Assembly: GCA_029834535.1 (NCBI GenBank)
Contig: JAQMWT010000130.1
Coordinates: 79,070-143,069, forward strand
Direction of reading: 5' to 3'
DNA length: 64,000 nucleotides
Source: Chrysophaeum taylorii
Lineage: Eukaryota > Sar > Pelagophyceae > Pelagomonadales > Pelagomonadaceae
Of the stretch, positions 5,033-64,000 are shown piece after piece. Both the position numbers and the translations under genes were made by a program. The notes under the pieces are model-generated. The model ran no database searches. It was not told where the DNA came from and was given only the letters and a program-made list of their open reading frames with translations. The number at the start of each line of letters is the position of its first letter. Within the stretch, counting starts at the first letter, position 1.

Positions 5033-5138
5033 TTAAAACAATCAATCAATCAATCGTCTTTTTCTTTTGCTTTCGAACGAAGTCTCGTTGTCGTCGTCGT
5101 TGCTGTTTTTCGCATATCTAATTATCGGAAAATAATTA

Positions 5139-5954
<816 letters not shown>

Positions 5955-6437
5955 TCAACAGCGAGGGTCGAGGGTCATCATCACGTTTTGATGTTCCGTC
6001 AAGGTGAGCAGAAGGATAATCCACGATTCGAACGCCGAGGCCTTCGACGACGCCTCGAGATCCCATTTCCTCGGTCGGCCAAGCTGTGACGTCGTGGCCG
6101 TTTGCTCAACTCTCCGACTGACGCCAATCATCCAGAGATCATGCTCGACGCGCTCCAGGCCTGTGGCCGCCGCCGCGGCATGTTCGAAGGGGCGGTTCGT
6201 TGGTACCCCGACCTTCAAAAGGCTGTCCAAGGAGCTCCTTGGATCGAGAAGGGTTTCGAGCGCCTCGCGAAGGCATTCCGGCTGGTGCTTCCTGTCCGAG
6301 GACGACGAAATCGGAGAGACGGAGACGTTAACAACGCCGACGACGTCGCATAGCGGACGCCGGTCTTCTTCCCCGACCGAGGACGCACTTTCGATGTCGA
6401 CTGCAACTTTTGAAGAGGTACCCCCCAGGATGTTCAC
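5955..6437 (-). CDS. Hypothetical protein, 160 aa
   Basis: A frame ending 18 bases before the FabG start on the same strand. It contains plausible amphipathic segments (ECLREALETLLDPRSSLDSLL) and no recognised domain. It may be the last exon of a gene extending upstream through the Ser- and Arg-rich minus-strand frames at 6760-7140, or just noncoding sequence ahead of FabG. High GC keeps the opposite strand open as well, so the call is weak. Confidence 0.25.
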   Translation of the reverse strand: MNILGGTSSKVAVDIESASSVGEEDRRPLCDVVGVVNVSVSPISSSSDRKHQPECLREALETLLDPRSSLDSLLKVGVPTNRPFEHAAAAATGLERVEHDLWMIGVSRRVEQTATTSQLGRPRKWDLEASSKASAFESWIILLLTLTEHQNVMMTLDPRC

Positions 6438-7572
6438 AAACCCGAGGCCTAGTTGGAGTCATCGTCGAGAGGCGAAGAGAGGAGCCACAGGTCGTGCGCG
6501 TTGTGCCGCCGGGACGCGGAGTGCGACAAACAATCTTGCTTGGTTCCAGGGCTACCCGAGGCGGCGACGTTGCCACTCTCGAGGGCGGCCAAGGCGCGGC
6601 GCGACAGGCATTGGCGACCTGAAAGGAAGGCAGGCTTGGTTGTGCGCGGGCGGCCTCCTTTCCAGGGCTGCCCGAGGTCGGCGCGTCCACTCGCGGGTGC
6701 GGCGAAGTTGGCGCCACACCGCGCTGCGATTTTTGCCGCAGATTGTTGCCTGGCCTCACCAAAAGTGCCAAAGACGACCCGGAGACTGTGTCGTAGCTGC
6801 TGCTGCGACTGGAGGACCCGAGAGATTTGGGCTGGTGGTCGCATCGATGGTGCGCGCGTTTTGAATGTTGCCGATCGACGGGAGCGAAGGAAGGGGCTTC
6901 TCGGGTGCTGCCCCAGACGACGAGCCCCCTGAAAGTGACACGACCGTGCGTTGTGATAGATATGCCGTCGAGGAGAGACGCGAGGCCTCGCCGAGGGGAG
7001 GTAGACTGTCCGTTGAAGAGGCGCGTCGTCGTCGTCGAGAATGGCGTCCAAATACCCCGGAAGAAGAAGGACTGGACTGCCTGCGAAGATAGCGACGAAT
7101 ACTTAGGCCACGCTGCCGCGAAGCGTCGTCGCGCAGCAGCAAGTGGTCTGTTGCCAGTCGTCGCAGAGAATAAATCCCCCCTGGCTTGGCAGCGACAAGC
7201 GTTTCGACTCACCTGGCCGCGTGCTTGATGAGAAGAGAGACGGGTCCCCCCCGCAGACATCCGTCCTCGGCGACGCGAGGTTTGTTGTTGTTCTAGGTCC
7301 TTTGAGCTAAACCGCAGGTCGCGTCGGAAGTTCCACGAGAAGGCGGCGTGACGACTCGGTCCTTCCCCGGGGACAGGTGGTGGCGCGCGATCATATCCGT
7401 CGTCTTCTGACGCGAACCGGTGTCCGGGGAGGTGAGCGCCCGCCGCAACAAGTCTAGCGGAAAGGATGACAGACGCGAGACGATTCTCGAGCTTCGAGGC
7501 GACGAGTTTAGCTCCACCTCAAGCCTTGCCGCTCACCGCGCGATGGCGGACGCTTGTTCTACGAGCGACACT
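6438..7572. other. GC-rich stretch, no supported gene
   Basis: Long frames are open on both strands (6004-6864 plus, 6328-7260 minus), all Arg-, Ser- and Ala-rich, with no recognisable domain. This pattern is expected of GC-rich noncoding DNA. A 104-codon plus-strand frame (7420-7734) overlaps the opposite-strand relic described next and is probably not real. Confidence 0.35.
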
Positions 7573-8345
7573 TCAAAGGAAGGAAGGAAGGACCGGCCTA
7601 TTCGTCGTTGTCGCAAGGCCGAGGATGCTCTCGCAGATCTTTGCGACGACGTTCTTGAAATCGAAGCGAAGTCCAGCAGACTGGCCTGCTGCGCGTCCTT
7701 TATCGACTTTCTCGCCGGATCCGAGCGTTCTTGAGCGTGCCGTGCGGGATAATGCTTCGACGTCGTCGACGCGGTACGACGTTCGGAATTTCTGGTCCAA
7801 CTCTTTTGCCAACCGACCGACCGACCGCCGCCGTCGTCACCTCGTCGCGCTTCGACCAGTTAGTCCGCGTTGCCTTCGCCCTGGCCGTCGTGGGCGGCGG
7901 CGCGGCGTAGGCGCGCTTCGACTCCTTCTTCGTCGTCGACTCCTTCTTCGTCGTCGACCCCTTCGGACGGACGGACGGACGGACGGACGGACGGACGACC
8001 CCGGTCTTGGGCTCGAGAAACCTCGTAGTCAACGAGTTTCCGGAGGAGGAGGAGGAGGCCTTCGCTCTTTTGAGCTTCTTCGACGGTCTGCCTTTCGCGC
8101 CTCGTCGTCTGAGTCTATTGGCGTCCTCCTCGCCTTCAAGCACCTCTCCGTCGTCGTCGCCAGCCGCGGCGGCGCGCTCGGTCCCGTCGACGGGATCAAG
8201 ACGAAAGCAGCCTTCTCCATATGTCTGTAAGTTCGCACGCAGCGCTTTCTTCTTCTTCTTCTTCTGGCGCACCTCTGCTCGAAATGCGGAATAAAGCGCT
8301 TATCCTCAAACGTCGCCGCCGTCGTTGTCCCCCAGAGCCGAAGTC
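7573..8345 (-). pseudogene. Decayed coding relic, inverted copy of 25.4-26.5 kb
   Basis: Read on the minus strand this matches the plus-strand sequence at 25439-26440 in several blocks: the bases around the CGGCTCTGGGGGAC stretch, a basic segment GRPSKKLKRAKA (GRPSKKF-like in the partner), FLEPKTG against ILEPNTK, then VVPRRRRRS, IIPHGTLKN and QQASLLDF. The IPxGTLKxY-like block resembles helix-turn-helix segments in DNA-binding and transposase-type proteins of algae, but I cannot name the family. Frameshifts break both copies. A (GGAC)n run at about 7968-7997 has expanded inside this copy, giving a VRPS repeat. Probably a dead mobile-element ORF. Confidence 0.5.
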
Positions 8346-8549
8346 ATAATATACTACCCATACATGATGATTCAAAATTAGTCGTCTCCCGTCGGTCAGG
8401 GGAGGGGATGGGAGGGCTGGAATAAAAATAAGGTCCAAGATCGCCTTTGGCGCTGCTGCCGGCATTGTGGCGGTAGCACGGGAGTCTCCCTGACGACTGT
8501 TGTCGATGGTCTTCTTCTCTCTTCTAGATGTCTCGATCACGCAGAGTTC
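8346..8549. other. Short spacer before the gypsy LTR
   Basis: No gene, repeat or motif is recognised between the relic homology, which fades near 8380, and the LTR edge at 8550. Confidence 0.4.
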
Positions 8550-8911
8550 TGTAGTGGTTTTTCTCTCAGACACCCGCCCCTCTTGGCCAGGCCAGAGGCC
8601 TCAACAACCCTTTCTCCCAACCCGAACCGCGGGTGAAACCACCACACGCCCCCGATCTCAGCGCAACCACCTCACACGCCATCACGAAAATCGGACAATC
8701 AAAAATGAGGGTAATAGCAAGAATAGACAGCAAGAAAGCAATACAAATGCCCGGTACGCGTTGGGTTCTTCAGTGGAAGCGCAGCAGGTGAGGATGTCAA
8801 GATGACACCCCCCCCCCCCCATAATTGCCAAGGTCAGTAGTCAGGGCAACAATCAGGATAATAAGTCAGGTGGCAGGCAAGCAAGTGGGGGGAATGGGCG
8901 TTACTGCCACA
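8550..8911 (-). repeat. 3' LTR of Ty3/gypsy element 1
   Basis: On the minus strand the repeat begins TGTGGCAGTAACGCC and ends AACCACTACA, i.e. TG...CA. It matches the solo LTR at 35429-35766 almost throughout, differing by short indels and substitutions. Just before it, on the coding strand, is a purine-containing stretch AGTAGGGGGCTCCTCTCC that fits a polypurine tract for plus-strand priming. It contains a run of 13 C at about 8809-8821. Confidence 0.85.
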
Positions 8912-9091
8912 GGAGAGGAGCCCCCTACTTGAGATGAAGTCGTCCTCGATCGACTTCAAGGGTGACTGACGAAGGTCCACACGCTCACGAATGGTACACG
9001 ATAAGCTCGGTCAGCTACATCAGCAGCAGGAACTTTGTTGCTGTGGAGGCCGAAGTTAGTGACGAGGACGTCGATTTCATCCGGTCGGAAG

Positions 9092-10480
9092 TCAGTTCAC
9101 ACAGGGTTCACAACTCTCCATGTTTGGTCGTAGGCGTGTGAAGCTACCTCCGTCGGGGTCCTTGTATTCTGGTCTTAAGCGTCGCTCGGCCAGAGGCTTA
9201 GTAGGAGGATCAAAAAGACGAGGATCATCGATCGCGCGGTCCCAAATCGGTATAGTGGTAAAGCGCAACCGTATCATTGTCGTGGTCATATTCTTCTTCG
9301 TAGACTTCGGCAACATCATATATACGCTTCTTCCACGCGTTGGATCGTCCTTTAACCCTGAAAAAAATCACGAACTTACCACGTTTGAAACGGTCTGAAG
9401 GTAAATGCAGAGGGGCTGAAGAAGTGCCGATGGTTGGCACTTTTCAAAGGCACAATTTGTTGTACAGATACTACAACCGAATCAGCATCATCGTCGTGAA
9501 CGTCTTGAATTTCGTAAACGACGGGAGAGATCTTTCTGGTAACTGGATCTTTCTGGTAACTATGTAAGGTCCGCGCCAAATGGGTCGTAGCTTGTGGCGC
9601 GTCTTAGGCACGAAACGCAGAACATAATCAATCACCTGGGGAAAAAAACTGGATGTCACTTTGGTGGGCATCATAGTTGAGTTTTTTGGCTCTCCTGTGC
9701 TTTGCGATGAGCTCGCGTAACGAGTCGACTATAAAATTCAAACTTGTTCTTAAAGTCCATCAAAAAAATCTGTTGACGTGACTGCGGTGTAGATCACGCT
9801 GTTCACTCAAAAGATTGTAATCGGGTGGTAACAGGGGTTGCTTGCCAGTACGCATCATGAAAGGTAAAAAATCTTCGTTCTTCCCGGAATGTACATCCTA
9901 TTGTACGTGAATGCCACATATGGGAGGAAATTCGACCAATCTGGCTGTCAGCGGTTCATCGATCGCAGCTCTCAAGAAGGCTTTGATAAATCGTCTTTGA
10001 CACGTTCAGTGTGGTTACTCTGAGGGTGATACGGAAGGGTAGTACGATAACGTACGTTGAATTGACGAACAAACGTGCGAAATAACCTGTTCGCGAACTC
10101 ATTTCCATTATCCGTGACTATGCACCGCGGGAGACATCCCTCAAATCGCGAGTATGTACGTGTACAGGTCAGCGCCTCGCAGAGGTCCAATCAGATCCAT
10201 ACCTAGGACATATAGCAATCTCCGACGCGATTCGGCTGACAGAGCAAGCCATGACGCTTAGGCATGGTGGATCGAATCTTCTGGCAAATAATGCAGGCAT
10301 TGACGAACTCATTAACTGACGATGAGACGTTTGGCCACCAATACCGTTATAAGATTTTATTCGCTGTGGAATCTCGTCCTACATGGCCTCCGAACAATCC
10401 TCGGTGATGCATGGCGATTACACGCTTTCGCATCGACCGAGGCACCACAATAAGACGTTGAGAATCCGAATCATCGACCT
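9092..10480 (-). pseudogene. Gypsy 1 integrase region, broken
   Basis: Fragments in several frames align with the integrase of gypsy element 2. The catalytic core piece (10190-9972) has IVTDNGNEF and LPYHPQSNHTERV, giving the second Asp and the Glu of the DDE triad; the stretch holding the first Asp is partly deleted. Downstream are RPIWRGPYIVTRKI (GPY/F-like), then the extra module HGKFVIF / AEVYEEEYDHDNDTVALYHY and a tail RPEYKDPDGGSFT also found in element 2. Integrase inserts the cDNA into the host genome. Frameshifts and deletion make it non-functional. Confidence 0.75.
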
Positions 10481-10602
10481 CATACAACACGTTGCTATCA
10501 ACTTCATACAAGGTACGGACGACTGATCATCTTGATCTTTCTGCTCAGAATCCATATTTTGTCTGATTCGCTTGCATGTGTCATCTTCAGCTTGTTCTTT
10601 CG

Positions 10603-11397
10603 CTATCTCATCAAGAGTGATCTCATCCTCCGCTTGATCCGCAAAAGGGAGACGTTCGACACGGAGTCAACTGGCTCAGACTCGTACCAGAATTGAGGCG
10701 GTTGTACGTTCTGTCGCGTACTAACTGCTGCCATAGCTGCGGTGGGTCCGCTGTCCGTCGGTATAGGCATCGTCACCGAAGAGAAGGTAAAACAAGCTGT
10801 GCCAGGTACATCGGTGGGGATTTCTTGGAAGATCAAATAAGCTTCATTGATCGGTTCCCCGTCTTCGTCTTTCTCGATCAACTTGTCGATAGGGTTGCGC
10901 GACAGACAATCCGGGATGCGCATGCCAGGGGAATTTCCAGGCTTGTATCCGAGCTCCCGGTCGAACGCAGCAAGCCGCATAGCCCATCGTGCTAACTGTC
11001 CAGACGTATGATTCGAATCCCGAAGAAACGTTAAATTACGATGACCTGTCTCTAATTTCGTCTGGTGACCTTCGATATAAAATCGGAAATTTTCGAGAGC
11101 AGAGAGTACTGCGAGGAGTTCCAAGCGCCGAGGATCATACTTCCTCATCGACTTAGGCACGGTTCGACTCCAGTACTCGATAACTCTCTCTTCGATTCTT
11201 TCTCTTCCATCGTCGTCAACGACTGGTACTTTTTGAAATAGGTAAGCACCCAACCCATGTGCGGAAGCATCAGTTCGAATGTAAAAAGGTAACGAGTAAT
11301 CAGGATGATAGCCGCCCTTCGAAGTGACAATAGCCTCGATGATGGCATCCCAAGCTTCCTGACACTCGTTCGTCCACCTGAATTTCACGTCCGGCAA
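10603..11397 (-). pseudogene. Gypsy 1 RNase H and linker
   Basis: 264 codons open. The start is the RT connection (FRWTNECQEAWDAI), followed by RNase H with LPFYIRTDASAHGLGAYLFQ (first catalytic Asp), RRLELLAVLSALENFRFYI (catalytic Glu) and TGHRNLTFL (the family's TDHxxL, here TGH, so this catalytic Asp is lost). The rest is a spacer toward the integrase zinc-binding domain with PGMRIPDCLSRNP, a typical gypsy sequence. RNase H removes the RNA template during reverse transcription. Confidence 0.8.
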
Positions 11398-11542
11398 CGT
11401 CAGTTGTCTTCATGGCTCTGCAACTTTCGCAAAATTCCTTACATAACGCCGGCAAAACTCCCCATTCCAAGGAAAGACCACACTTGCTTCTTAGGGTCAG
11501 CATCCGACAAAGTGCCAGGGATTGGCATGTGTCTAATGGCTT

Positions 11543-12588
11543 CTAAAGACCTCGGTGATGGAAGAAGTCCGTTCGGGGTGTGGATAAATGACCCAAAAAC
11601 TCAATGCCTTCTTGCATAAAATTGATCTTCTTGGTCTTGGCGCTGTACCCCTTCAAGGCGAGATGGGGAATAACTTGCACAAGGCACTGCAAGTGATTCT
11701 TTGTATCTGCGTGACCGGCGAGAATATCGTCGATATATGCCACGAGATCACGATATAGCCATTGCGATAAGTCAGTGTTCAACTGCTTGCAAAATAAACT
11801 TCCGGCTGGTTTGACTCCCAAAGGTAGACGCATGTAGCTGTACGCTCCCAGAGGACTAGTGAAGGTGACCACATCTTGTGCATCCAGGGACAATCGTAAA
11901 TTGTGATAGCCCCAACGAATATCCAAACTGGAACGACAAAACTTGTCAATGAGAGAAACATCAACGCGTCAGCCATGCTCACACTCGGCCAGCTATCATC
12001 TTTGAGCAATGCATTGAGGCGCCGTAGGTCGACAGCTGCTCTGTAAGCAGTGGAAGTGCCAGGCTCAGCACCTTTCTTAGGCAACATCAAAATAAGGAAA
12101 CCCCATGGAGAATTCGCGGGACGAATAACTCCGTCTCGGGTCCATTCTTCAATCTGCATCCGCAAGCATTCAATCTTTTCTTTCGACAACCGATATGGCG
12201 AGAGTTTGACGGGAGTCGGGTTCTCTTCTTTGAACCGGAGCGTCACTTCAGGTGAATCAACAGGTCTCATCACATCATCGAAAAATGCCCACGAACGCGA
12301 GGTTTGGTGCTTCATCATCAGCTTTTCGTCATCATCTAAAGCAGGATGCTCTGTAACACCCAATTCAGTCATCACCTCTTCGACCTGCGCGACGGTCGGA
12401 GGGATGACCTGCATGCTCCCCTGATCCGCTAAATGAGGAGGCATCACCGGTAAAGGTTGACCATGTTCGTCGTGAGGCGCGTCCGCCCACGGAACGTCGT
12501 ACTTACTAAAATACGGAGGTCGCTCCTTCGCGGTGCCTTCTTCTTCAGCAGTTGCGGAGGGCTGGTTGTCGGCTTGGTTGCTCTGCAT
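11543..12588 (-). pseudogene. Gypsy 1 reverse transcriptase, frameshifted
   Basis: Two frames overlap at about 11780-11926. The first (12588-11779) has WTRDGVIRPANSPWGFLI and AAVDLRRLNALL (fingers and palm). The second (11926-11543) has DIRWGYHNLRL, SPLGAYSYMRLPLGV and the catalytic VAYIDDIL (YIDD at about 11737-11726), then IEFLGHLST. The frame change near 11930 shows a disabling indel. The first frame lies -1 relative to the methyltransferase frame upstream, the same offset seen in element 2. Confidence 0.82.
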
Positions 12589-13916
12589 AACAGCAGTGGC
12601 GACGGTGCCCCCTGCAAAAGATTGAGCCGTCCCAGGCGGTGTAACCGAAGGTGGTGGCGGGGTGGCGGGGGCAGCAGCTGATGGTGCAGGACTCGCAGGA
12701 GAGAGTAGAGTTCATCGGGCGAAATCCATGACACACTTCGAGTGGCAGGGTCGAGCGTTGGAATGCGCGACTCGACAGCAAAAGGTGAAAACCGTAGAAT
12801 ATGGTGATCGGGTTGGGCTATCGTAGTCGTCGCAATATTCCGCAACTTACCCAAATTTCGAAGTGAAGGGTCAAACGAATTGTGCACTGCTAGCGCGTTC
12901 CGCTTTGTAGTCGCGGGTGGCACAATACTGCCAAGCATCTTCATAGCTGCTGTCTCTGATACTTTCTCACCCCACTGCCACGTAGCAAGAACGGTCATAA
13001 TTTTCTCGTGCATTTGCAACGTGAGTGGACGGGTGTTCGAGAAATGAGGTCCCACCTGCAATTTGTTGCGCGTCACTGTGAAGGCAGGGCCTATAGCCGG
13101 ACGCGTAGATGAGAAACTATTTACTATAATGAGCGGGTGACCACCTGTAAATCCCAACGCTGGCCCAAAACGGTCCCGTAAATTCGGTGGTACACGCGAT
13201 AATAACGGCAGTTCCAAGCGAACATTGCAAGCAAGTAGGCGCGTGCGCTAGCACAGCAATTCTGGTGTGATACTATAAAAATCGACAACGCGCGGCACAT
13301 AAAATTGGTGATGCACAAAAGGGATCCCTGATGGTTCCTGCTCGAGCGTCCATCGTCCAATTACATAAGGTGCGTTGCGGAAATGACGCAGGATCCAAGA
13401 AGTAATAGTAGCACCCTTGCGAGCGTCCCTGTAGTGCAAATTGGCAGTCGACCCATAGATACACGGTGGACTTGCGTGAAAATAAGAATGCTTCCAAAAA
13501 TCTGAATGAAAATACGACAACACCAAGTCGTATGTACGACGATGAGATTTCCCCAACTCGTGCAAAACATAGGGAATCTTCGGAAAATTGAGCTCAAATG
13601 TGGCTCGGGCTTGGGGACAAGCATCCAAAGCCAAGACAATGCGAAATGCACTGCCATATAGGTCATTGCATCGCCGGATACCCAACGTTGATCCTCCAGC
13701 GCCAGCAAAGTAGACGACGACAAAGGTGTAGGTGATGGGTATCCAAACCAAGGAGGCGTGCTTAGATAGCAGCTCCTTAGCGGTCGCCTCCATCTCCATT
13801 TCTGGTGTTTTTTTCACTTCTTCATCTGGAGGTGGCTCAGGAGGAGGTCTGTCACTCAAGACATCCTCCACGACTTCACTCTCGTCAACAGCAGCCGTGA
13901 TGACAAACGTCCTCAA
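12444..13916 (-). CDS. Cytosine-5 DNA methyltransferase domain in gypsy 1 (one in-frame stop)
   Basis: One reading frame of about 490 codons interrupted only by TAG at 13248-13250. Motif I FAGAGGSTLG is at residues 70-79 (SAM binding), an acidic motif-II residue fits D98 (LALDA), and motif IV ASPPC puts the catalytic cysteine at residue 152. WTLEQ (about 190-194) sits where motif VI (ENV) is expected, and YVPRVV where motif VIII lies. After the stop, RPLTLQMHEKIM resembles motif IX and MLGSIVPP resembles motif X (GNxVPP). Order and spacing fit C5 methyltransferases, which methylate cytosine in DNA. The TAG, and weak motifs VI and VIII, make present activity doubtful. It lies between retropepsin and RT in the element. 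Confidence 0.8.
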
Positions 13917-14824
13917 TGGCTTCTAGCTGCATATTGACACACCCTTCGTGCGACATGATCTCACCTTCGACCACCGGGACTTCGGGGTCGATACCAATGG
14001 GTTCTTCACCAATGTGCTCCACGGCCACGTGAACTTCGTTGGGCTCGTCGGAGCAATACGACGAATAGGAGCCAGGTACGAGGCGGAGATCTGGGAGGAG
14101 TGACCGACGAGGTCGGGATACTTGACCCTTTTCCAGCGGCATATCGCACTCCATCTCCAAGAAGTACGGTTGGTTCGGAAGAAGATATCGAGTACTCGTC
14201 ACGTACGCGACATGAGGGATGATATCTTCTTCGTCCGCAGGGATTTAAGTTGGTCTTCCGCTTTTTCAGCAGTCATATCACTGCGGTGAGCATGATGGTG
14301 ATTCGCTCTGGCACGAATAGAGCGCAGCAGACTGTCATAACTCCACGGTTTACCGACTGGCGTCCACAAGTTTGGGTAATTCCCGCCTTGCATAGCGAGC
14401 TTAGCTGTCGGGAACATCTGCACTACCTGGGGAGTCGCATCGAATGCATCATTGTAAAGGACAACTCCATGCTGGCCTTGTGGCGAGGCGGAAGTCCGAT
14501 TCTTGAGAACTCCGATAGTCACTTCAGAACGCCGGAAAATAGCTCTCTCTCTGTTGTTGCATAATCCAAAATCGTACCCAAGAGTCGTAATTTTCGTGCT
14601 CCTAATAGTAACAGCCCTTTAGTTTGACCAACAAAGAACATGAGCAGTGTGGATGTCGTTGGCACCAAGGAGATCCGGAGAATGACCCATTCTCGAATAG
14701 CAGCTCCCGAACTTCCTGACCCATTCAGAGTACGAATCGTAGGGAGTGGCTGACGATAGATGATTTTGCCGTCACGATATGGAATATTTCGAACCATGTA
14801 GCGAAGAGACAGCCACGGGCTCAT
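13885..14824 (-). pseudogene. Gypsy 1 retropepsin half and acidic linker
   Basis: The first frame (14824-14519) ends with GLLLLGARKLRLLGTILDYA, the typical second half of a gypsy aspartic protease. The active-site half upstream is degraded: a frame near 14850-14870 has VRYDGTRSASLT, where D-T/S-G would be expected. Frameshifts at about 14520 and 14200 lead to a linker with LLPNQPYFLEMECDM and a strongly acidic stretch before the methyltransferase. Retropepsin would process the element's polyprotein. Confidence 0.6.
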
Positions 14825-15280
14825 ACGTCAAAGAGGCGGATCTCGTGCCATCGTACCTCACGGCTTTTATTTTCACGATGGTCGGGATCCTGAGTGGTAT
14901 TCAACGCAGTCTGAGGGCAGAAACTCTCAAAATCCGAAGAGATGGATTGGTGAGCGGCGTAACGCTCGGCACAGTCGTCCCTCGGTGGCACTATATCCGT
15001 AGCAACCAAGGTATCTCGTCCCACACGAGCGATCGTATATCCCAATCCATCACGATTATCTTCGTCTTCCGCGGGAACTCTGGGTGCAACTCCGGTCACT
15101 TCGGTACTTTGCCCCTGCTCCTCCACCCACGCATCTTCAGTGATGTGACCAAAAAGGAAGGAGGTTCCATGGGCTCACCATGGGAATAGCCTTCTGCAGA
15201 GAAGCTATCATCATCGTCACCGTGATACACGTTGCCCTCCATGAGCTCAGAATACTGTACAGTGCAGTAGTCCGCTCGCT
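14825..15280 (-). pseudogene. Gypsy 1 upstream coding remnant (gag-protease border)
   Basis: Open minus-strand sequence from about 15250 reads MEGNVYHGDDDSFSAEGY, then after a frame change EEQGQSTEVTGVAPRVPAE and a further acidic stretch to 14821. No zinc knuckle or capsid sequence is recognised. By position it is the region between gag and protease. It ends abruptly where hAT homology begins. Confidence 0.4.
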
Positions 15281-15420
15281 TAACGCCAGCGCCGGTCCCT
15301 GTCGCGCCCCGTCAGTTCCGTGCCCCTCGCGCGCTATTGCCTAGGTCTGGTGCTCTTAGATTCATTCGCATTTCGGGGCGAAGGAGGAGTTACCGTGGAT
15401 GGGGTTCAGTGTTTCTTACT

Positions 15421-16454
15421 TTAGGCGATGTGAACGACCTCGGTATCTTCGTCTGGTTCTTCCTCATCAACCTCCATCTCCGAAGAGTCTTCGGGGATGG
15501 TGCTCTCGGCGTTTTTGAACTCGGTCTCGTGTCCGAGGTCCCCGTACTTAATCCGGGCCGCCGCAATGAAATTCTTGTTCATGCGCAGTAGGGCAACTTT
15601 GTCCGTCTCGTCCGCGCTGAGCAACGTGTTTCCCTCAGTCAGGACAAGATTTCCAATGCTCAGGCAGCGCTCACAGTAGCTCTGCGCGCCATGTGTACCA
15701 ATTGAACCCTTAGAGGCTCTCGCCATCTCCGGAAGGAAGGAACCCATACTGCTCCTTGGTGAGCGGTCGATACAGCTTTCCAACGTCGAGCACGCCAGCA
15801 GTTGATAGTCCGAAAGTCAAGAAGGAAGGCAATCAGCTCGCGATCGTTGAATTCGTAGTCGAGGTGACGCACGTAGTTTTCATTATTCCCGCAAAACCGA
15901 CGCTCTCATTCGAGAATAGCCCGCTCAAGACAGATTTTGCCGGTCTCGCTGAGGTCGTCAACATCGACAGTCTTACGTGGCATGGATTTCGCAGTTATGT
16001 TCGGGAGATCAATGACTTCTAGCGTCCCAGCTTGCAGAGACTCGATCATGTTGTGCTTGATCAATGCGGCGCACGCCCCCATGTATAAGTGTTCATGTTG
16101 CACGAAAACAACGGCCTCATCCGTTATAGCAAAAATCGCCTCGAATTCAACCAACGCCACCCATTGCTCATCACTGATTGTCCAGGGGAGTCCAATGTTG
16201 GTAGCCGCGTACAGTTTGAGCACGTGGTGCATACGCAGCAAGGAACGAATAAGTTGGTATCGCGCCCGGAACCTCGTCTTATTGAGGTCGAGCTTGAGCT
16301 TCGGCGATTTCCCCGGCTGTAATGGCAAAAGCGCATGCAGATCCTTCAAACGTGTGCCGTAAGAAAAGTACTTTGCTCCATCGTGGGCACTGTTCAGCAG
16401 CTCCTGGCCAGCTGGGAATGGATTGATCACCTGCTTACCTTTGGATCGTGTCAA
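15421..16454 (-). pseudogene. hAT transposase, C-terminal half (copy 1)
   Basis: Frames at 16454-15906, 15872-15660 and 15783-15421 together give the transposase body and the hAT dimerisation segment. The latter reads YCERCLSIGNLVLTEGNTLL then DETDKVALLRMNKNFIAAA, matching the family pattern SER-FS-x-AG-x(n)-L-x(n)-LxxN. An acidic tail (MEVDEEEPDEDTE) follows. hAT transposases excise and insert the element; the C-terminus makes the oligomer. Frameshifts near 15880 and 15780 inactivate it. Confidence 0.72.
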
Positions 16455-17087
16455 GTCGAAAAATGCCGCTGCCGAGATCTTTGAGATATCTGCATGTCAC
16501 ACGCTTCGACCTCAACAAAAAAATCTTCGGCGACGCCAATTTGGGAGCCCGGTCTTGAACAATGGTTGCGGCCGCCAAATCGATATCGATTCCCGCACGC
16601 TCCGCGACCACAGAACGGAGCAGGGAAGCCGTGCCGGAATCGGTTCCGTCGTCAGCTGGAACGAGGCCCAAGCACACCGTCTCAACGCCACTCCAATCGG
16701 GCCAGATGAAGGATAGGCCAATGGCCTGTCGCTTGAACTAATCCTAAAGGGTTCCGCCGTCATGCAGCACCTGGGCGAATGGATTGCCGAAAGCCGCTTC
16801 ATAACACTCCGTAACGACGTGCTTCAAGATTCGAACAAAGCAACGAAAATCAGCGTCCACCCATTCTAACAGCGCCTTTCGATTCATGAACGGGCACTTG
16901 CCTTTCCCGCCACCGCCGCGGTAATACTACGCCTCGATTGGGTTGCGATGATCTTCGTCGTCAGTCAAAGGTGCGCTTGGAAATCCGCTGCGGCGTATAC
17001 ACGCAGTGCCGAGCCGAGAACGCCATCATCAGGGAAGAGTGCTTTGCCTGGCTGGGCATGGCCATGAAGTGTCTCGTAATATCCGAT

Positions 17088-17577
17088 TTACCCTTCGAGG
17101 CTGCCACAACGCCCACGGCCGTCATAAAAAACGCCATCTTTTTCTTGGTCTGTCTTCTGTTTCTTGGTGAGCTGTCGACGTCCCAGCTCGTCGAATCCTC
17201 CTCCGGATGCGCAGCCTTGAAATGGGCCCCAAGAGGGCTTGGTCGTCTGCCACGTGCCTTTCTTGAAGTCTCTCGTCACCACCTCGAGGCGCTCCCAGCA
17301 CCGGATACACACATGCGTCGTCGCCTTCCCACTGGTCAACGCGGTGGTCAGGATGATGTTCCTTCGGTCGACGCACTCAGTCCCACCACCACACCTTGGA
17401 AAAACCTGGTTGACTGTCCACTTTTGGTGCCGGGTGTGTTTGTTCCACGTCACAACATCGACGTCGCAGTGGGCTCGTTCTTGTGAACTTCCTCCTTCTG
17501 TTAACACCGCGTTTTAATTCCTCCTCATCATCAACATTATCCTCCACCTCCAGGTAGCGCGGCTCGACTTCGCTCAT
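17088..17577 (-). pseudogene. hAT transposase N-terminus with BED-like zinc finger (copy 1)
   Basis: Starts MSEVEPRYLEVEDNVDDEEE (acidic). After a frame change the sequence continues VDVVTWNKHTRHQKW and then CIRC with HFKAAH about 35 codons later in another frame. C-x2-C...H-x4-H is the BED-type zinc-finger pattern common at hAT N-termini, where it binds the element ends. The C and H parts are out of frame with each other in both copies in this window. Confidence 0.55.
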
Positions 17578-17736
17578 CAGACGGGGTCAGGGTCAGGCCG
17601 TCAGCCAAAAAGTGAATGAACGTGAAGTGAACATTGGACTTCGGACGACAAACTTCGGTGAAGTGAAGTGAAGTGAACCAAATTCAGTGAACCTCGTGAA
17701 GTGAGCCCAGTGAATTAATTCCCAACGCTGAAAAAA

Positions 17737-18405: not shown

Positions 18406-19219
18406 GCTCTCGATAAGAGTTATTTGGCAGCAGCAGCAGCAGCAGCCCTAGGTCGCAACTCCTGCTACGTGTTGACGCTCGGGGGGAAAGTCCACCACTG
18501 AGCGATCATTTTCCCTAGCTCTCTGAGCTATACCACCATAACTGGTGCAGCTCATCTTCACGACGGGTGGGCAAAAATAAGATGTAGTTTGTCTCCGACT
18601 ATTTCTCGCACGTCGATGGTGTGCTTTGACATCTCGGGCGGTCATATCTGACTGTCGGAGGAGCCGCGAGCCGTCTCGGGCTACAAAACATGCCGCGCCG
18701 GCGTTTCAGGGGGTGGGTGATCGACTGATTAGTCGGCGCTCGAGACTTGTCTGGTATCGGTGACGCACGAACGTTGATGGGAAGCTGCGGAAAGTACGCA
18801 ACTTCGCTTTGAGCATCGATGGGTCCTTGATGTGTAGGCCAATTCATATGATCTCGTTTCGTCGACTGCCACCGACTCGCGTTTGGCATGTTGTTGAAGC
18901 AGGCTTCGAGGCGCGGCGACGCACGATCCTCTTCGCCTCTTGGCTTTGTCGACACCACAACTTCGTTGACGTAGGGGGATGACGTCGGGCACGCCGTACC
19001 GAAGGCGTAGCTTTGGGGAGACAAACGAACGGGAAGTAAGCAGCGCCGATTTGGAAGTGCCATGGTTCGAATTATTCCTCAACGGCATTCAAGATTCGCG
19101 AGAATTTAGCCGAATGTCCGGAACACATCCGGTATAAAGGAACAAGTGGCAAAAGAACTCTGGATTCCGTTGTGATTATAAAAACTATCTGGCGGATTTC
19201 GCGTAAATCATCTCGGAAG
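18406..19219. other. Intergenic stretch, little seen
   Basis: A (CAG)n run lies at about 18428-18447. Two overlapping minus-strand frames (18599-19063 and 18729-19088) show no domain. The last ~110 bases, from GAATGTCCGGA near 19111, are partly shared with the region upstream of the paralogous ORF at 22413 and may be its 5' untranslated or promoter sequence. Confidence 0.4.
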
Positions 19220-21935: not shown

Positions 21936-21936
21936 T

Positions 21937-35428: not shown

Positions 35429-35766
35429 TGTGGCAGTAACGCCCATTCCCCCCACTTGCCTGACTTACCCTGATTGTTGCCCTGGTATTGACCTTGCAAT
35501 TATGGGGGGGGGTGTCATCTCGACACCTTCACCTGCGCTTCCACTGAAGAACCCAACGCGTACCAGGCATTTTTGTATTGCTTTCTTGCTGTCTCTTCTT
35601 GCTATTACCCTCATTTTTGATTGTCCGATTTTCGTGATGGCGTGTGAGGTATTACGCTGAGATCGGGCGTGTGGTGGTTTCACCCGCGGTTCGGGTTGGG
35701 AGAAAGGGTTGTTGAGGCCCCTGGTCCGGCCACAAGGGGCGGGTGTCTGAGAGAAAAACCACTACA
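35429..35766 (+). repeat. Solo LTR of the gypsy family
   Basis: 338 bp, begins TGTGGCAGTAACGCCC and ends AACCACTACA, matching the LTR of gypsy element 1 with small indels. Flanked by the 4-bp repeat ACTT (35425-35428 and 35767-35770), a candidate target duplication. No internal element sequence adjoins it, so it fits a solo LTR left by LTR-LTR recombination. Confidence 0.82.
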
Positions 35767-58004: not shown

Positions 58005-58640
58005 AGATCGTCGTCACCTGTTCTGACGGCCCCCGAAAGTCGAGACTGGTAAGGCCTATCGATCGGCACCTAGAGTCTGACCCGCGATTCTCGACCCCGA
58101 ATTTCGGAGTCCCAAGACATCTGATGTCCCCACTGCCTTAAAAAATAACGGGGGCATTTATATTTATTTATTTATTTATTATCCAGGTCTCCAGGTGCCG
58201 ATCGACGCACTTTGAGGCGTACTCGACACTGGCCAAGCGGCGTTGGTGGGGCGGTCGATCTGCAGTCGGGTTTATGCTCAAACCCCCTCGTAGGGTTGTT
58301 ATGTTCAGGGGGACAAACAATGCTAGGAATATCACTGAAAGTGGTACACCGAAGTCAGACGGGGGGGCATTATTAGAGAGCGCCCCGTAGAAGCAAAGCG
58401 CAATCACAGCCTGCTATCGCGCCGCATGCTCAGTAGTCGCCTCTCGAACAGCGTCAACCACGTACTTCTCTCTCTCTCTATGAGCTGTGGCGCCACATGA
58501 CCCATAGGTGCAAAAGAATGACCCGACCCGACCCGACCTGAGGTATGATGTCACTAAGAAGATCGGGAAAGGTGTTCCGGGGTATCAAGCCTCGAGAGAG
58601 GGGGGGTAAGCCTTTGCGGTCAGGAGTTGCCGCCACCACA
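58005..58640 (-). repeat. Probable 3' LTR region of gypsy element 2
   Basis: On the minus strand CACCAGGGGAGTCC is followed by TGTGGTGGCGGCAACTCC at 58640, matching in layout the polypurine tract and LTR start of element 1 (GGGGGCTCCTCTCC then TGTGGCAGTAACGCCC). The other LTR edge cannot be set because the 5' LTR lies outside the window. (TTTA)n at 58160-58180. The integrase frame reads into this region before stopping at 58478. Confidence 0.5.
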
Positions 58641-60605
58641 GGACTCCCCTGGTGAGAATACGAGCTGCCCTCAGCGAGTCCTCCGGCGAGAATAGTACGA
58701 GCCTTGGCAGAATGAGCGTCTCGGGAAATACGAATCTTCTTGTAGACACGTTCAACGACAGGTTCTTCGGGAACGCGTCCACTACGCAAAGTGAACTTGG
58801 GAATCAACACATCGGTCTCATGCGGAGCGAAGTCGGTGACACAAGGAGTGGTACTGTTGTTGACCTTGGACTTGTCGGTGAAACTGCGACCGTCCACGTC
58901 CTTGTACTCCGGCTTGAGCTTGCGAGTAGAGAGATGTGAAGTAGGCTTGTAATAAGAAACCTTGTCATGGGGACCACCGAGATCGGCATCAAAATGCAGA
59001 GCGACTCGATCATTCACAAAATCGTGATAGGGCTCATAAACTTCAGCGACATAAATCTTCTTTCGCCAATCGGACCGTTTATTATCCGGAATCCGAAAGA
59101 TAACGAACTTACCATGCTTGTAATCATCCCGAAAGGTCTCCTTGGGCTTGGGCACAGCTCGATCGACCACTGGAGAAACCATCACAGGGGTAATCTGACT
59201 AACATGAACACAACGGCGTTCGGGAGGAGAATCAAGAGACTCAATCCTGTAAGTGACCGGGGACAAGCGTTCCAAAATAACGAATGGACCGCGCCATTCC
59301 GGTCGAAGCTTGTTCTGAAGAAAAGGGATGTAGAGCAGCACAAGTGAACCTTCTTCATACTCCACATCAACATGGTCCGCGTTATAGGCGAGACGCTGTT
59401 TACGAAGAGCCTTCTCGCGAGCTTCGTTCACCGTGGCGGTATAGAACTTCAGCCTCTCGCGAGTCTCTGCCACAACATCGGAGCGAGTTTTCGGCAGGCG
59501 GCGGACATCAAGATCCATGATCGTGTAATCGGCTGGCAATAAAGGCTGCCGGTTAAGACGAAGCATGAAAGGAGAGATCTGAGTCCCCGGAATAAATTTA
59601 CGATTGTAACAGAAAGCAATGTACTCCGCGAATTCGGGCCATTCCGTGATCTTGCGGTTTTGAAGGCACGCACGGAGGAAAGCCTTGATAAAGCGGTTGA
59701 CCCTTTCCGCAGGATTAGCCTGAGCATGATACGGAATCGTGGTACTATACCGAACATTGAAAAGATGATAAAACTCTTCCATCAACTTGTTGACGAAATC
59801 TTTCCCAGTGTCGGTACGAATCCTCTGAGGTAGATAACCTTTGAGTAATATATTCGCGACAAAAGACTCGAGGATTGACTCAGCAGTATTATGGTGTAGT
59901 ACGTCAAGAATCAAGAAACGAGAAAATGGATCAAAAAAGACGATGAGATATGTCTCGGGACCAGCACTAGGCAAAGGTCCAAACAAATCCATACAAAGGA
60001 CGACACAATCACCATCATACACCGGTTGCTGAAGCAGACCTGCTCTCTTTGGTTCAGGCGTACGCACAGGGGTACATATAGCCCCGGGCACTCGCGCTCA
60101 CCAGGACCGGCATTCCTACCCTCACCTTTTGGTTATGGGCCATCAAAGCGCTCGAGGTGGCTCGCACGTTCGAATCAGCCCCACCGCTGCGCCGCAAGAA
60201 GTGTGTGAGTGCCTTCGCAGCAGTTGCCGTCGCCAACTGCTGGAGCCCCATCGTCTAGAACACACACTAGACCCCCCTCATCCGGGCGCTTTCACTTACC
60301 AGGACCGGATGTTCATCTCCGACGCAGATGTTCATCTTAAGCAGATGGCGTCGTCGTCTGCTGGGTCCCCAGTGTGTGCGAGTGCCCGGGGCTATATGTA
60401 CCCCTGTGGTGCGAGCTTTCTTGCACACTATGCAACCAGATATGTAAGCACCCACCTCATTAGACATATGGGGCCACCAAAAACGTTCAAGTATCGACTG
60501 CACTGTACTTTGACGACCCATATGACCACCATTGAGAGGTATGTCATGGGACAATCGGATGATGCGCGTCCGTAAAGTTCGGGGTGCGACTATCATCGGG
60601 TGCAA
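58478..60605 (-). pseudogene. Gypsy 2 integrase, split by an insertion
   Basis: The HHCC part (60605-60420) reads HDIPLNGGHMGRQSTVQSIL and ISGCIVCKKARTTG. After the insertion the catalytic core has CMDLFGPLPSAG (first Asp), RIRTDTGKDFVNKLM (second Asp) and YHAQANPAERVNRFI (Glu), so the DDE triad is complete. Then NKLRPEWRGPFVILERLSPV (GPY/F module) and a C-terminal extension with HGKFVIFRIPDN, KKIYVAEVYEPYHDFVNDRV and ALHFDADLGGP. The core frame is open for 537 codons. Function: cDNA insertion into chromosomes. Confidence 0.85.
60065..60408. mobile_element. MITE-like insertion in gypsy 2 integrase
   Basis: 344 bp with perfect 31-bp terminal inverted repeats, starting CACAGGGGTACATATAGCCC at both ends. 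Inside, ACCAGGACCGG occurs twice as a direct repeat (60100 and 60300 regions). It splits the integrase between CKKARTT and VRTPEPKRAG. No clear target duplication; at best an imperfect 6-bp one. No coding frame of its own, so non-autonomous. Superfamily not set. Confidence 0.75.
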
Positions 60606-61152
60606 GTCGGGTGCGGCAACGGTAGAGAACTCCTTTCACCACTTGATAGCGATAGTTGGCTCCGTACCGACGAAGAGAATAGCCCTGAGCCATGCGATAA
60701 CGAATGTCCTCGCAAGTAGCATCAGTGATCTGCTCTTTGGCTATCTCTTCCAAAGTCAAATTATCCGGAATCTTGTCGATGTACTCTTGGTAATCATCGG
60801 CATCGCGTAAAATACTAGGCTGGGTCTGCAGTCGTTGCTTCTGACGTTGTTTCGTAGCATGAGACGTGACCAATTGCATCGGATCATCTAGGTCTTCTTC
60901 CTCTTCCTCCACAGGCAACTCAGTCGTAACAAACGACAGAATGACATGGCACCCAGGTAAAGGTACTCCTTCATCATCAACAGAACGAGGGAGTTCTTGG
61001 GACACCAGATACGCGTGGTTCAAGAGTTCACCAAACTCGTCCGTCTCGATGACATGATCTATAGGATTGCGAGAGAGACAGTCGGGGATGCTCATTTCCG
61101 GCGACTTCCCTGGCTTGTAACCCAATTCAGGATCAAAATTGGCGAGCCGCAT
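60606..61152 (-). pseudogene. Gypsy 2 RNase H-integrase linker
   Basis: Open frame beginning LANFDPELGYKPGKSPEMSI and PDCLSRNPIDHVIE, the same segment as in element 1, then an acidic spacer (EEEEEDLDDP), and EQITDATCEDIRYRMAQGYS leading into the HHCC domain. A stop at 61153-61155 (TGA) separates it from the RNase H frame: a single nonsense change at the position where element 1 reads ARWAMRLAAFD. Confidence 0.7.
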
Positions 61153-61155
61153 CGC

Positions 61156-61596
61156 TCATCGAGCCAACTGCCCAGACGAGTGCTTCGCCTTTCGTAAAAA
61201 CGTCAAGTTGCGATGATCTGTTTCAAGGATCGTCTTGTGACCTTCGATATAAGAGCGGAAATGCTCAAGAGAAAGAATAACTGCCAGGAGCTCTAGCCGG
61301 CGAGTCTCATAGTTCCGCATCTCCTTCGGCACAGCTCGGCTCCAATACTCAATTACTCGTTCCTCTCGTGTCACCTTGCCGGTTTCGTCCTTGATTTCCA
61401 CGAGCTGAAAAAGATACGCACCCAGACCATCCTTGGAAGCATCCGAGCGGATCTGAAAGGGAAGATCGTAGTCAGGATGATAAACTCCACGAGAATCCAC
61501 CAAAGCTTCGATGATCGTGTCCCATGCCTTTTTGGCACTCAGGCGTCCATTCAAACTTAACGCCTTCAAGACACAATCGCCTAAGCGGCTCCACAA
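61156..61596 (-). pseudogene. Gypsy 2 RNase H
   Basis: LPFQIRSDASKDGLGAYLFQ (first Asp), RRLELLAVILSLEHFRSYIE (Glu) and LETDHRNLTFLRKAKHSSGQ (TDHxxL, Asp kept), so the catalytic set looks complete. Frame-shifted relative to RT by an indel near 61560, where RT reads WTPECQKGMG and this frame continues AWDTIIEALVDSRG. Confidence 0.8.
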
Positions 61597-62788
61597 TCTT
61601 CGAATAATTCTTCACATATCGGCGGCAATAGTTGCTCATACCAATGAAAGATCGAATCTGGGTCTTATTGGGCAACGTACCGGGAATCGGCATCTGCTGC
61701 AACGCTTCTAACGTCTTGGGATTCGGCTTCAAGCCTTCCGGAGTCGAAATATGTCCCAAAAACTCGATTTCATCCTTGAGGAGGTGGAACTTCGAAGTTC
61801 GTCCACTATATCCTCGCTGTGCTAAATGGCACAACACTTCAATCAAAACTTGTAAATGTCGATGGAGTTCATCCGATCCCATCATAATATCGTCGACAAA
61901 CGCGACCAAGTCCTTATACATCCATGTGGACAAATCGCTAGCCATCTGCTTACAAAAGAGAGCTCCTGCTGTTTTTACTCCTAGAGGCAAGCGCAAGAAA
62001 CTATGGGCTCCCAGTGGACTAACCATCGTAACAGCGTCCTGAGCAGCGGCGTCCAAACGTAAGTTATGATAACCCCATCGAATATCAATGCACGTCCGCC
62101 AACGGCGCATGGCAAGAAAAGCCAAAGCATCATCTTGACGAATATTCGGCCAACTGGCATTGACCAGCTGATCATTGAGCTGACGCAAGTCAACGGCAGC
62201 ACGAAAAGCATTCGACGTCCCGGCCTCGGCTCCCTTCTTAGGCAGCATCAGTACAGGAAATCCCCACGGAGAGTTCGCCGGTCGGATGACTCCATCGCGA
62301 CACCACTCAGTGATCTGCTTTCTGAGACACTCGAGCTTTGCTGGCGTCAACCTATAAGGCGTCATCTTGATCGGTCTTGGGTTTGCGTCTTTAAAGCGTA
62401 GAGAAACCGGTGGCGAGTCCACGGGTCTCATAATCGGATCAAAGAAAGCCCGCGCGTATTGCATGCAATGGCTCAACATCATCTTCGCGTCATCATCCAG
62501 ATGCGGGTTGTCGGGAATTCCTAGATCTCGAACAACCTTCTCAACTTCTTCCTTCGTCGGAATTACGACTTTCATCGCATCATTGTCCTTGACGTGCTTG
62601 GGAATCTGCGGTAACGGTACACCGTCCGCATCGCGCGGCGCATCCTTCCATGGCACATCGAAATTTTCTTCGTATTTGAACCTCACCTCAGGGTGGCTCT
62701 TATTGATCTTTTCACCTTTGACGCGCACATTCGGCTCGCAACTTACTTTCGGCTCCTGTTCAGGTTCAGGATCCGGCGGAACGTCCAC
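61472..62788 (-). CDS. Gypsy 2 reverse transcriptase
   Basis: 438 open codons. RT motifs: WCRDGVIRPANSPWGFPVLM, AAVDLRQLNDQL, CIDIRWGYHNLRL, SPLGAHSFLRLPLGV, then VAFVDDIMMG (catalytic FVDD) and DEIEFLGHISTPEG, with the thumb RSFIGMSNYCRRYV. All catalytic Asp are present. The frame begins at a GTG, without ATG, consistent with expression as part of a polyprotein by frameshifting from the methyltransferase frame upstream. Ends in the frameshift to RNase H. Confidence 0.88.
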   Translation of the reverse strand: MDVPPDPEPEQEPKVSCEPNVRVKGEKINKSHPEVRFKYEENFDVPWKDAPRDADGVPLPQIPKHVKDNDAMKVVIPTKEEVEKVVRDLGIPDNPHLDDDAKMMLSHCMQYARAFFDPIMRPVDSPPVSLRFKDANPRPIKMTPYRLTPAKLECLRKQITEWCRDGVIRPANSPWGFPVLMLPKKGAEAGTSNAFRAAVDLRQLNDQLVNASWPNIRQDDALAFLAMRRWRTCIDIRWGYHNLRLDAAAQDAVTMVSPLGAHSFLRLPLGVKTAGALFCKQMASDLSTWMYKDLVAFVDDIMMGSDELHRHLQVLIEVLCHLAQRGYSGRTSKFHLLKDEIEFLGHISTPEGLKPNPKTLEALQQMPIPGTLPNKTQIRSFIGMSNYCRRYVKNYSKIVEPLRRLCLEGVKFEWTPECQKGMGHDHRSFGGFSWSLSS

Positions 62789-62877
62789 TTTTGATTGTCG
62801 GGGGGGGCAGGAGAAAACGCATGAGCCGTCCCCGGCGCATATGTAGGAAGCGGAAGCATAGGAACTTCTGGCGGTTC

Positions 62878-63930
62878 TTATTTAGCAGGATCCTGGAGAT
62901 CATCCTTTGACACCCACTTAACGACACGAGTACGCGTATTTAACAGCGGAATCACTACGTGACGAAAGGTGGTGTCGGAGATTCGTAAATACTGCTCAAA
63001 GGATCGATCTGTCGGGCTCGATGCGGTCGGCAGGACTTCGCCACTTTGGCAGAAACCTCTGGTCACGGAGTTGTGTAGATCGACTGCTAAAATCGCAAGA
63101 GTATCTGGAGGGACGACAGACGTTAAATCTTTGAACGAATCTGTCTTAGACAAGCTAGCCCAATCATGATCCGCCGGCATCGTGAGCGACTCGGCCGTCA
63201 TCTCGAGAGTCAAAGGCTGAGTGTCCGCGCGATGCGGCCCCAAACGAAGAGGAACTCGCGTAACGGTGTAAGCCGTATCTGTTGCTTCTCGGGACGAGCC
63301 AAGATTATTCAGCTGGAGAAGGTGGCGTTCATGAGCATAACCTAAAGCTGCAGCAATTTTTGTGCATGTTCACACATGTCTTCGGAGCTCTTTTTGCAAG
63401 TGCAGTGGGTGACTGGAAACCAACAATCGCACGGAGAGCTCATCAGAGTAGGTGTGATATCATGAAAATTGACAGACGTGCAGGGAAAAATAACGTAAGG
63501 GGGGAAGCGCGCTAGGTACGAATAATGGAAGCTCTAACCTCCCGTTTCAATACGGCAGCACTCATGAAGCAAGCCATTTTGCAAGCTCGACATCGTCCAA
63601 GTTAGTGGCCCGCTCACACCTTGCCAACCTTCTGGCTATCAAGTTGCGAAGTGCGGGAAGGACGCGGCGAGAGACGCTATAAACATCGACGATGACCATT
63701 CCGCTTGAGGCAAAATAAGCTGTCATACCGGAAGGGTCGAGGTCATATCGGCCACAGAGCGGTGCTGGACCACCAGGTAATTCTTCGGAAAATTTGTGAG
63801 AACCTTGTTGGCAGTGTGCAGAGGTCAAGAGCAAGGAGATCGGAAAACGACGTCCCGCAAAACGTCACTTTCTTCGATCGTTGCGAGTACCTAAAGTATT
63901 CTGCCCGGCAGCCGTGAAGAGTGCATCACG
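62878..63930 (-). pseudogene. DNA methyltransferase remnant in gypsy 2
   Basis: Aligns in order with the methyltransferase of element 1. ALFTAAGQNTLGTRNDRR stands where motif I is FAGAGGSTLGIRRCND; YFASSGMVIVDVYS where the catalytic FHASPPCIYGSTAN is; VIFPCTSVNFHDITPTLM where YVPRVVDFYSITPELL is; then TAYTVTRVPLRLGPHRADTQ and PLTLEMTAESLT (motif-IX-like), and LTSVVPPDTLAILAVDLHNS (motif-X-like). The SAM-binding Gly and the catalytic Cys appear lost. Stops and frameshifts lie between 63560 and 63280. It cannot be catalytic as it stands. Confidence 0.6.
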
Positions 63931-64000
63931 AACCTTGCGATACGTACGTATCGGCACCCGTGGACCTTTTTCAAAACCGATTAGTTATCTACTTCGAATT

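Follow-up and report, generated by a model that had tools for sequence, protein, structure and literature searches.

A 64,000-nucleotide stretch of the genome of the pelagophyte alga Chrysophaeum taylorii (assembly GCA_029834535.1, contig JAQMWT010000130.1, positions 79,070 to 143,069 of the forward strand; hereafter the window) contains what is almost certainly a decayed copy of a Ty3/gypsy long terminal repeat (LTR) retrotransposon whose polyprotein includes a C5 cytosine methyltransferase (MTase). The family to which this copy belongs is called gypsy-A here. Its MTase domain, with motifs I to X, lies on the minus strand at 12726..13796, as located by tblastn with the intact domain of the sister copy L009 to L001 (93.8% identity; coordinates converted from L001). 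Two minus-strand frames divide the domain: 13251..13922 carries motifs I to VII (FAGAGGSTLG, ALDACPQA, ASPPC, WTLEQ), and 12447..13247 carries motifs VIII to X (RTRLL, RPLTLQM, GSIVPP). All of the motifs share a single minus-strand frame from 13922 to 12447, in which the sole break is a TAG at 13248-13250, between motifs VII and VIII. An earlier inspection of the letters alone (the sequence-only reading) had reported C5 MTase motifs in this order at this place, and that report is borne out. An ordered-motif pattern, composed after the motifs had been seen, matched once in the window and not at all in 150 simulated first-order Markov windows (9.6 Mb), and a chance occurrence of the motifs was rejected on this count. 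The profile search that had been proposed as a check gave a divided answer. Taken alone, both window pieces fall under the cut-off of 22 bits for the Pfam family PF00145 (DNA_methylase), the N-terminal piece with motifs I to IV at 19.8 bits (E 6e-4) and the C-terminal piece with motifs IX to X at 11.3 bits (E 0.23), whereas the whole polyproteins of the intact sister copies L009 and L013 pass it with 30.7 and 31.2 bits, and their excised MTase domains reach 35.4 and 37.7 bits.

The remaining part of the 5'-truncated element occupies 8549..15282 on the minus strand. It was delimited by blastn with the sister element L011 (9657 bp, LTR to LTR), the reference for the window copy, whose positions 2937-9657 are matched in three pieces at 87-93% identity. 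The other parts of the element all lie on the same strand as the MTase. On one side is a protease remnant at 14561..14803, the part behind the active site, found by tblastn with residues 991-1070 of the polyprotein of a second subfamily, gypsy-B (36%). About 64 element bases are unmatched at approximately 14775-14778, and they correspond to the active-site segment of the protease in the sister copies. Of the retropepsin that had been proposed beside the MTase, a remnant is thus present and the active-site segment is missing; even in the intact sister copies the active site reads DGMAD (L009 in gypsy-A, L055 in gypsy-B) and not D-T/S-G-A, a change that adjoins the presumed catalytic Asp, and there was no Pfam protease match in the polyproteins that were profiled against Pfam. 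On the other side of the MTase are a frameshifted reverse transcriptase (RT) and RNase H at 10606..12567 (RVT_1 50.3 bits at 11543-11926, RT_RNaseH 87.9 bits at 10603-11397, tblastn 12567-10753), a decayed integrase region at 9231..10508 (tblastn with the gypsy-B polyprotein, 33%) and the 3' LTR at 8549..8907 (85% identical to the L011 LTR). The 5' truncation at about 15282 has removed both the 5' LTR and the gag-like part, the 3' LTR is the only one kept, and the copy is dead. Adjoining the truncated 5' end is one member of an inverted pair with open reading frames (15281-17700 and 46332-49254, 86-91% identical), which is unmatched by the L011 element and so looks like another repeat.

Further copies, for which a search had been suggested, are plentiful in the genome (70.8 Mb in 697 contigs). 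With the first 222 residues of the gypsy-A MTase as query and the best 150 of 762 candidates scored, there were at least 159 matches, and 149 rows collapse to at least 134 places. A same-strand MTase match lies 0.2-4.5 kb upstream of at least 80 of the 105 gypsy-A RTs identified at 77% identity or more, with a median gap of 943 bp; the MTase and RT searches each scored 150 candidates, and the remaining 25 of the 105 RTs may have an MTase too. Long gypsy-A frames, of 1812 residues in L009 and 2129 residues in L013/L014, show the order gag-like part, protease-like motif, MTase and RT. The first of these is named gag by its position, the Retrotrans_gag match in L009 being weak (14.6 bits, cut-off 24.1). 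The integrase of L009 matches Integrase_H2C2 with 60 bits and rve with 28 bits, the latter under its cut-off of 32.6. Fused frames and sister copies of this kind, together with RT, RNase H and integrase on the same strand, bear out the proposal that a C5 MTase is encoded in frame within a Ty3/gypsy element. LTR pairs are present in six copies and differ at 9 of 272 sites in L009, 17 of 325 in L011, 25 of 338 in L013, 6 of 175 in L015, 2 of 352 in L017 and 2 of 329 in L021. The few differences in L017 and L021 suggest that some insertions are recent. The flanks of L017, read by eye, have the 5-bp sequence GTACG on both sides.

The MTase is the most conserved region of gypsy-A after the RT. Between the gypsy-A subfamilies A1 and A2, nonsynonymous divergence (dN, NG86) is 0.06 in the RT and 0.10 in the MTase; it rises to 0.31 in the post-RT stretch, which leaves the frame at its end in L009, and to 0.47 in the gag-like part. 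The ratios of dN to synonymous divergence (dS) in the same comparison are 0.059 for the MTase and 0.023 for the RT, and are indicative only, dS being saturated. In a sample of 24 gypsy-A loci, ten of them chosen for greater divergence, the GG of motif I is retained in 23, the D in 20, SPPC in 23, the motif VI Glu in 20 and RTR in 22, and VPP in 17 of the 21 loci that are readable there. These comparisons indicate that the MTase is kept up by purifying selection in a replicating lineage. The sequence-only reading had itself raised the alternative that a host MTase gene lies by chance within a broken element, and the truncated and frameshifted state of the window copy would agree with it. That alternative is however refuted by the presence of the MTase at no fewer than 134 places, its constant spacing to the RT, the single fused frames, the apparent purifying selection and the same layout in two gypsy subfamilies, and we consider it excluded for practical purposes. 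The MTase belongs to the element.

The second subfamily, gypsy-B, is a more divergent MTase element that the gypsy-A copy L017 adjoins and, by position, lies within. It has at least 150 genome matches to a 101-residue query (best 150 of 644 candidates scored), dozens of them with identical scores. In its member L055 one uninterrupted frame, at least 2993 residues long, contains the protease-like motif at residue 979, the MTase at 1353-1702, the RT at 1927-2091, RNase H and the integrase at 2482-2651, so that in gypsy-B the integrase is in the same frame as the rest of the polyprotein; the Pfam domains RVT_1, RT_RNaseH, H2C2 and rve follow in order with 45.7, 88.4, 64.6 and 43.4 bits, and the excised MTase domain passes PF00145 with 25.7 bits. 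The MTases of gypsy-A and gypsy-B are 38% identical and their RTs 63%. Invariant among five aligned sequences of both subfamilies are the motif I glycines, the motif II Asp, ASPPC, the motif VI Glu, both Arg residues of motif VIII and the VPP of motif X. Because gypsy-A and gypsy-B share their layout, a single MTase capture before they split is the simplest reading. The window also holds a degraded gypsy-B element at 58597..63975 on the minus strand, with 75% DNA identity to L055: its integrase is at 58694-60079, RT and RNase H are at about 60598-62833, and a decayed MTase part with stops (46% by tblastn) is at 62800-63975. Both subfamilies have in common a tail behind the integrase (L055:923-1564 on the minus strand, and the end of the L009 integrase frame) with the pattern W..KKIYVAEVYE...ALHFY.DL; it matched SH3 and integrase C-terminal families only, under their cut-offs, and no PDB chain, and is possibly a chromatin-reader-like module.

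In a six-frame search of the genome with PF00145, 123 of 474 candidates were scored and at least 57 matches obtained; 20 of these loci were inspected. At 18 of these 20 the enzyme is a different MTase, recognised by TLPCQ, that sits in another kind of LTR element. One example, L044 (one locus with L040), has a frame of 1952 residues with a protease-like DGGAS motif at residue 82, the MTase at 273-614, rve at 1016-1110 (17.2 bits, under the cut-off of 32.6) and RVT_2 at 1686-1933 (133.2 bits). With its integrase upstream of RVT_2, the L044 family has, from its domain order, a Ty1/copia layout. A 208-bp LTR pair (88.9%) flanks L044 and is itself bordered by CTCAC at either end. The whole L044 polyprotein scores 32.1 bits and the excised copia domain 36.0 bits against PF00145. 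LPCQ is kept in all 18 loci, ENV in 17 and SENAR in 15, in a sample that was picked by PF00145 score and is therefore biased towards good motifs. Pairwise dN/dS of the copia MTase is 0.10-0.16 where dS exceeds 0.3, and up to 0.37 at smaller dS. The copia MTase sits directly behind the protease-like motif, as in the gypsy elements. The profiles of the gypsy and copia MTases, which are thin, showed no likeness beyond the motifs (E 0.46), and since they are alike in motifs only, the two enzymes were likely taken up separately, from different sources. With the two gypsy subfamilies and the copia family, the genome holds hundreds of MTase-bearing element copies.

Relatives of these enzymes were scarce. 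The gypsy MTase profile matched only two PDB chains at E<=10, 8yf3 (E 0.019) and 3g7u (E 0.85), and the copia MTase profile matched 8yf3, 8c56 and 4dkj (E 0.03-0.06), all of which are listed as cytosine-specific methyltransferases. Neither profile matched a DNMT3-named chain at this threshold, and these missing matches suggest that the two MTases are not DNMT3. In Pfam, PHROGs and NCBIfam alike, the element domains match best to families whose names say DNA methyltransferase or methylase, and the phage DNA methyltransferase families phrog_116 and phrog_363 match all four element domains tested (E 4e-12 to 0.04). In a search of phages the best match of the gypsy MTase had an E of 3, and the copia MTase shared 25% identity with an MTase of an archaeal virus (E 1e-6). 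A single gypsy MTase query against 5.8 billion proteins found none at E<=0.01 among 3395 candidates. With a profile of gypsy-A and gypsy-B, one metagenome relative, P0001, was found among 6906 candidates (E 5e-35, 34% to the gypsy MTase); the copia profile found no relative among 6511 candidates, and none was confirmed in the viral contigs and genome contigs that were searched. P0001 lies on a 2598-base contig, reads PSC at the PPC site and matches no Pfam family, and its best match in this genome is the gypsy-B MTase (36%). The stretch ahead of its MTase resembles, by eye, the spacer between protease and MTase of gypsy-A. P0001 may thus belong to an element of this kind in a different protist. 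In profile comparisons with the host's own enzymes, E was 0.41 for the gypsy MTase and host DNMT5 and 0.12 for the copia MTase and host DNMT2.

These host enzymes, DNMT2 and DNMT5, were the sole non-element enzymes among the 20 inspected of the 57 PF00145 loci, a count in which intron-split genes may be missed. DNMT2 (L024, C634:8824-9801) has 138 bits to 1g55. DNMT5 (L025/L057, C621) has 482 bits to 7r76, which is listed as Rad8 and which we take to be Cryptococcus DNMT5, and carries an SNF2 domain (51 bits). Both DNMT2 and the SNF2-fused DNMT5 appear as long frames uninterrupted by introns. Cryptococcus DNMT5 is reported to maintain methylation and to be without de novo activity (PMC9246332), and DNMT5 in some algae accompanies heavy linker methylation (PMC9998398). 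Among the contigs of the assembly is one of plastid type that carries psaA and psaB. Its PsaB scores 1502-1490 bits to 9ygv, 9m4f and 7y7b, 1459-1456 bits to 6l4u and 6ly5, and about 1390 bits to 6ijj and 5l8r. We take 7y7b to be from a cryptophyte, 6l4u and 6ly5 to be from a diatom, and 6ijj and 5l8r to be from green-lineage hosts; on these scores a red-lineage plastid is probable.

Judged by the usual motif names and canonical forms of C5 MTases, the gypsy enzyme has retained four features: the glycines in its methyl-donor motif, Pro-Pro-Cys at the catalytic site, Glu in motif VI and RxR in motif VIII. The best explanation, to which we give a probability of roughly 0.6, is that the element MTase methylates, de novo, either the cDNA of its own element or newly inserted copies, and PMC5890265 infers the same role for the published retrotransposon MTases. 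In the mechanism that we propose, and that we hold to be an even bet, the MTase would be made within Gag-Pol and packaged with the RT, and it would then methylate, de novo and in cis, cytosines of its own double-stranded cDNA or of the freshly integrated copy. Methylated cDNA might thereby resemble host DNA, or new insertions might have their chromatin state set, and marks in CG, if such are made, could be maintained by the host DNMT5. That the element hides from host silencing, or uses it, as the sequence-only reading had supposed, is a hypothesis.

Several observations weigh against this explanation. Besides the saturation of dS in the gypsy-A comparison, the whole L055 polyprotein scores only 18.9 bits against PF00145, motif VI reads LEQ or IEQ and not ENV in both gypsy subfamilies, and motif I of the copia enzyme (AGGLHQEGF) is degenerate. 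The ratio of observed to expected CpG comes to 1.2 over the window, and to 1.0-1.3 over nine element loci with their flanks. Within the window the ratio is lower across the gypsy-A part than in the gene-rich parts (1.07-1.11 versus 1.3-1.4), with more TpG and CpA, which could be due to codon composition or mild decay. C>T substitutions at CpG in gypsy-A copies amount to 0.0125 per site (52/4145) versus 0.0133 at all C (210/15815), and in six copia copies to 0.0257 versus 0.0231. Of the 30 transitions counted over the six LTR pairs, 5 are at CpG, which makes up 179 of 1791 sites. Any CpG excess is thus slight at most, a clear sign of lasting CG methylation is missing, and CG decay was dropped as proof of methylation for want of a clear signal in the substitution counts. 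The counts are compatible with transient methylation of the cDNA, with another sequence context, with good repair, or with no methylation. In the yeast experiment of PMC5890265 the KnitGypsy and SymbioLINE MTases of other algae gave no detectable methylation, a result judged inconclusive there, and the SymbioDIRS MTases gave de novo CG methylation.

An MTase whose fold is kept but which is catalytically weak could instead have a structural role in the particle or bind nucleic acid there, for instance by holding RNA or cDNA near the RT. The LEQ or IEQ in place of ENV, the replacement of N by S in motif X (GSMVPP), the degenerate copia motif I, the PSC and missing Pfam match of P0001 and the unclear CpG signature all fit such a role. 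However, a weak module would not be expected to keep SPPC in 23, the motif VI Glu in 20 and RxR in 22 of 24 gypsy-A loci, nor to leave these residues invariant at only 38% identity between gypsy-A and gypsy-B, and even with its bias towards good motifs the copia sample points the same way (LPCQ in 18/18, ENV in 17/18); we regard this reading as rather doubtful. LTR elements prime reverse transcription with tRNA, and the enzyme might act on RNA, be it this priming tRNA or the element's own genomic RNA, which would account for the missing CpG signature. In hhalign the gypsy MTase and the host DNMT2 align over motifs I to VIII with E 0.0015, and both have SPPC, yet the probability of that alignment is just 16% and it possibly reflects shared motifs alone, and the copia MTase compares with DNMT2 only at E 0.12. 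Enzymes of the DNMT2 type, which have the same fold, methylate tRNA (PMC3145265), and RNA methylation was raised for SymbioLINE (PMC5890265); nevertheless, the DNA methyltransferase and methylase families that are the best matches in all three family databases speak for a DNA substrate, and action on RNA seems unlikely to us.

It has also been put forward for transposon-borne methylases (PMC6338049, PMC5890265) that they help protect host or element from competing DNA viruses, or damp transposition for the sake of persistence. The many near-identical gypsy-B copies look undamped, and we think this very improbable here. De novo methylation by the element of its own cDNA or new insertions is the reading that we prefer. 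A larger claim, that de novo DNA methylation in this alga comes from its retrotransposons, strikes us as decidedly unlikely; if it were true, the gypsy and copia enzymes, of two separate origins, would write marks that the host maintenance enzyme copies, and the methylome would be seeded by mobile elements.

Other features of the window include a gypsy-A-family LTR at 35433..35766 on the plus strand (88% to the L011 LTR), solo LTR-like in that no L011 internal match lies alongside, and a remnant of another copia RT at 33262-34122 (RVT_2 25.7 bits, under cut-off). A repeat family of about 1 kb occurs in both orientations at 19213-22640, 26555-27567 and 43871-44874, 84-98% identical in the aligned pieces. 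Host-like genes, by Pfam, are a tyrosinase domain (3440-5029), a short-chain reductase with a leader-like N-terminus (5142-5954), an acyltransferase (38226-39572), a sulfotransferase (51346-52470) and an amino-acid transporter (55120-56238).

In one genome, then, two LTR superfamilies have each acquired a C5 MTase at the same position after the protease, and the two enzymes seem to differ in origin; capture accordingly looks recurrent and adaptive. A host DNMT5 of the maintenance type, together with young and numerous elements, makes this alga a natural test of heritable methylation written by mobile elements. Among the open papers listed by literature searches, none was seen to report C5 MTases in two LTR superfamilies of a single genome or to describe a gypsy MTase outside DNMT3, in a survey that hardly covered subscription papers and preprints.

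Capture of C5 MTases by retrotransposons has already been described in two lineages (PMC5890265). The features by which retrotransposon-encoded DNMTs are recognised are also found here, namely an MTase in the coding frame of the element, multiple copies and purifying selection. The Symbiodinium elements SymbioDIRS-Dnmt3 and SymbioLINE-Dnmt (PMC5890265) are likewise retrotransposon C5 MTases with hundreds of copies and more than one element class per genome. In contrast to the elements described here, they are DIRS and LINE elements and not LTR elements, their MTases are of the DNMT3 or an orphan lineage, and they have a tyrosine recombinase or an endonuclease in place of the rve integrase; the sequence-only reading was mistaken in calling the dinoflagellate elements copia. 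LTR 'Copia' DNMT3 elements are mentioned in PMC12344493 and would also have a C5 MTase in an LTR retrotransposon, although the wording may be a slip, as the 2018 paper cited there describes a Gypsy element; the copia MTase of this study, unlike those, has weak matches to other cytosine and virus methyltransferases. DIRS elements with a Dam-type methylase (PMC5890265, PMC6338049) also carry a DNA methylase, but theirs is a structurally unrelated adenine methylase in a tyrosine-recombinase element. Another close system is KnitGypsy-Dnmt3 of Klebsormidium nitens (PMC5890265), in which a C5 MTase lies in a Ty3/gypsy Pol frame, in several intronless copies and under purifying selection. That MTase is however DNMT3-related and its element has repeats arranged as in DIRS, whereas in the elements examined from this alga ordinary direct LTRs stand at either end, the host possesses a DNMT5, its plastid is probably of the red lineage, and the profile matches gave no DNMT3 affinity. 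On the strength of these sequence features, including a PsaB nearer to what we take to be red-lineage chains, the acquisition in C. taylorii was likely separate from that in Klebsormidium.

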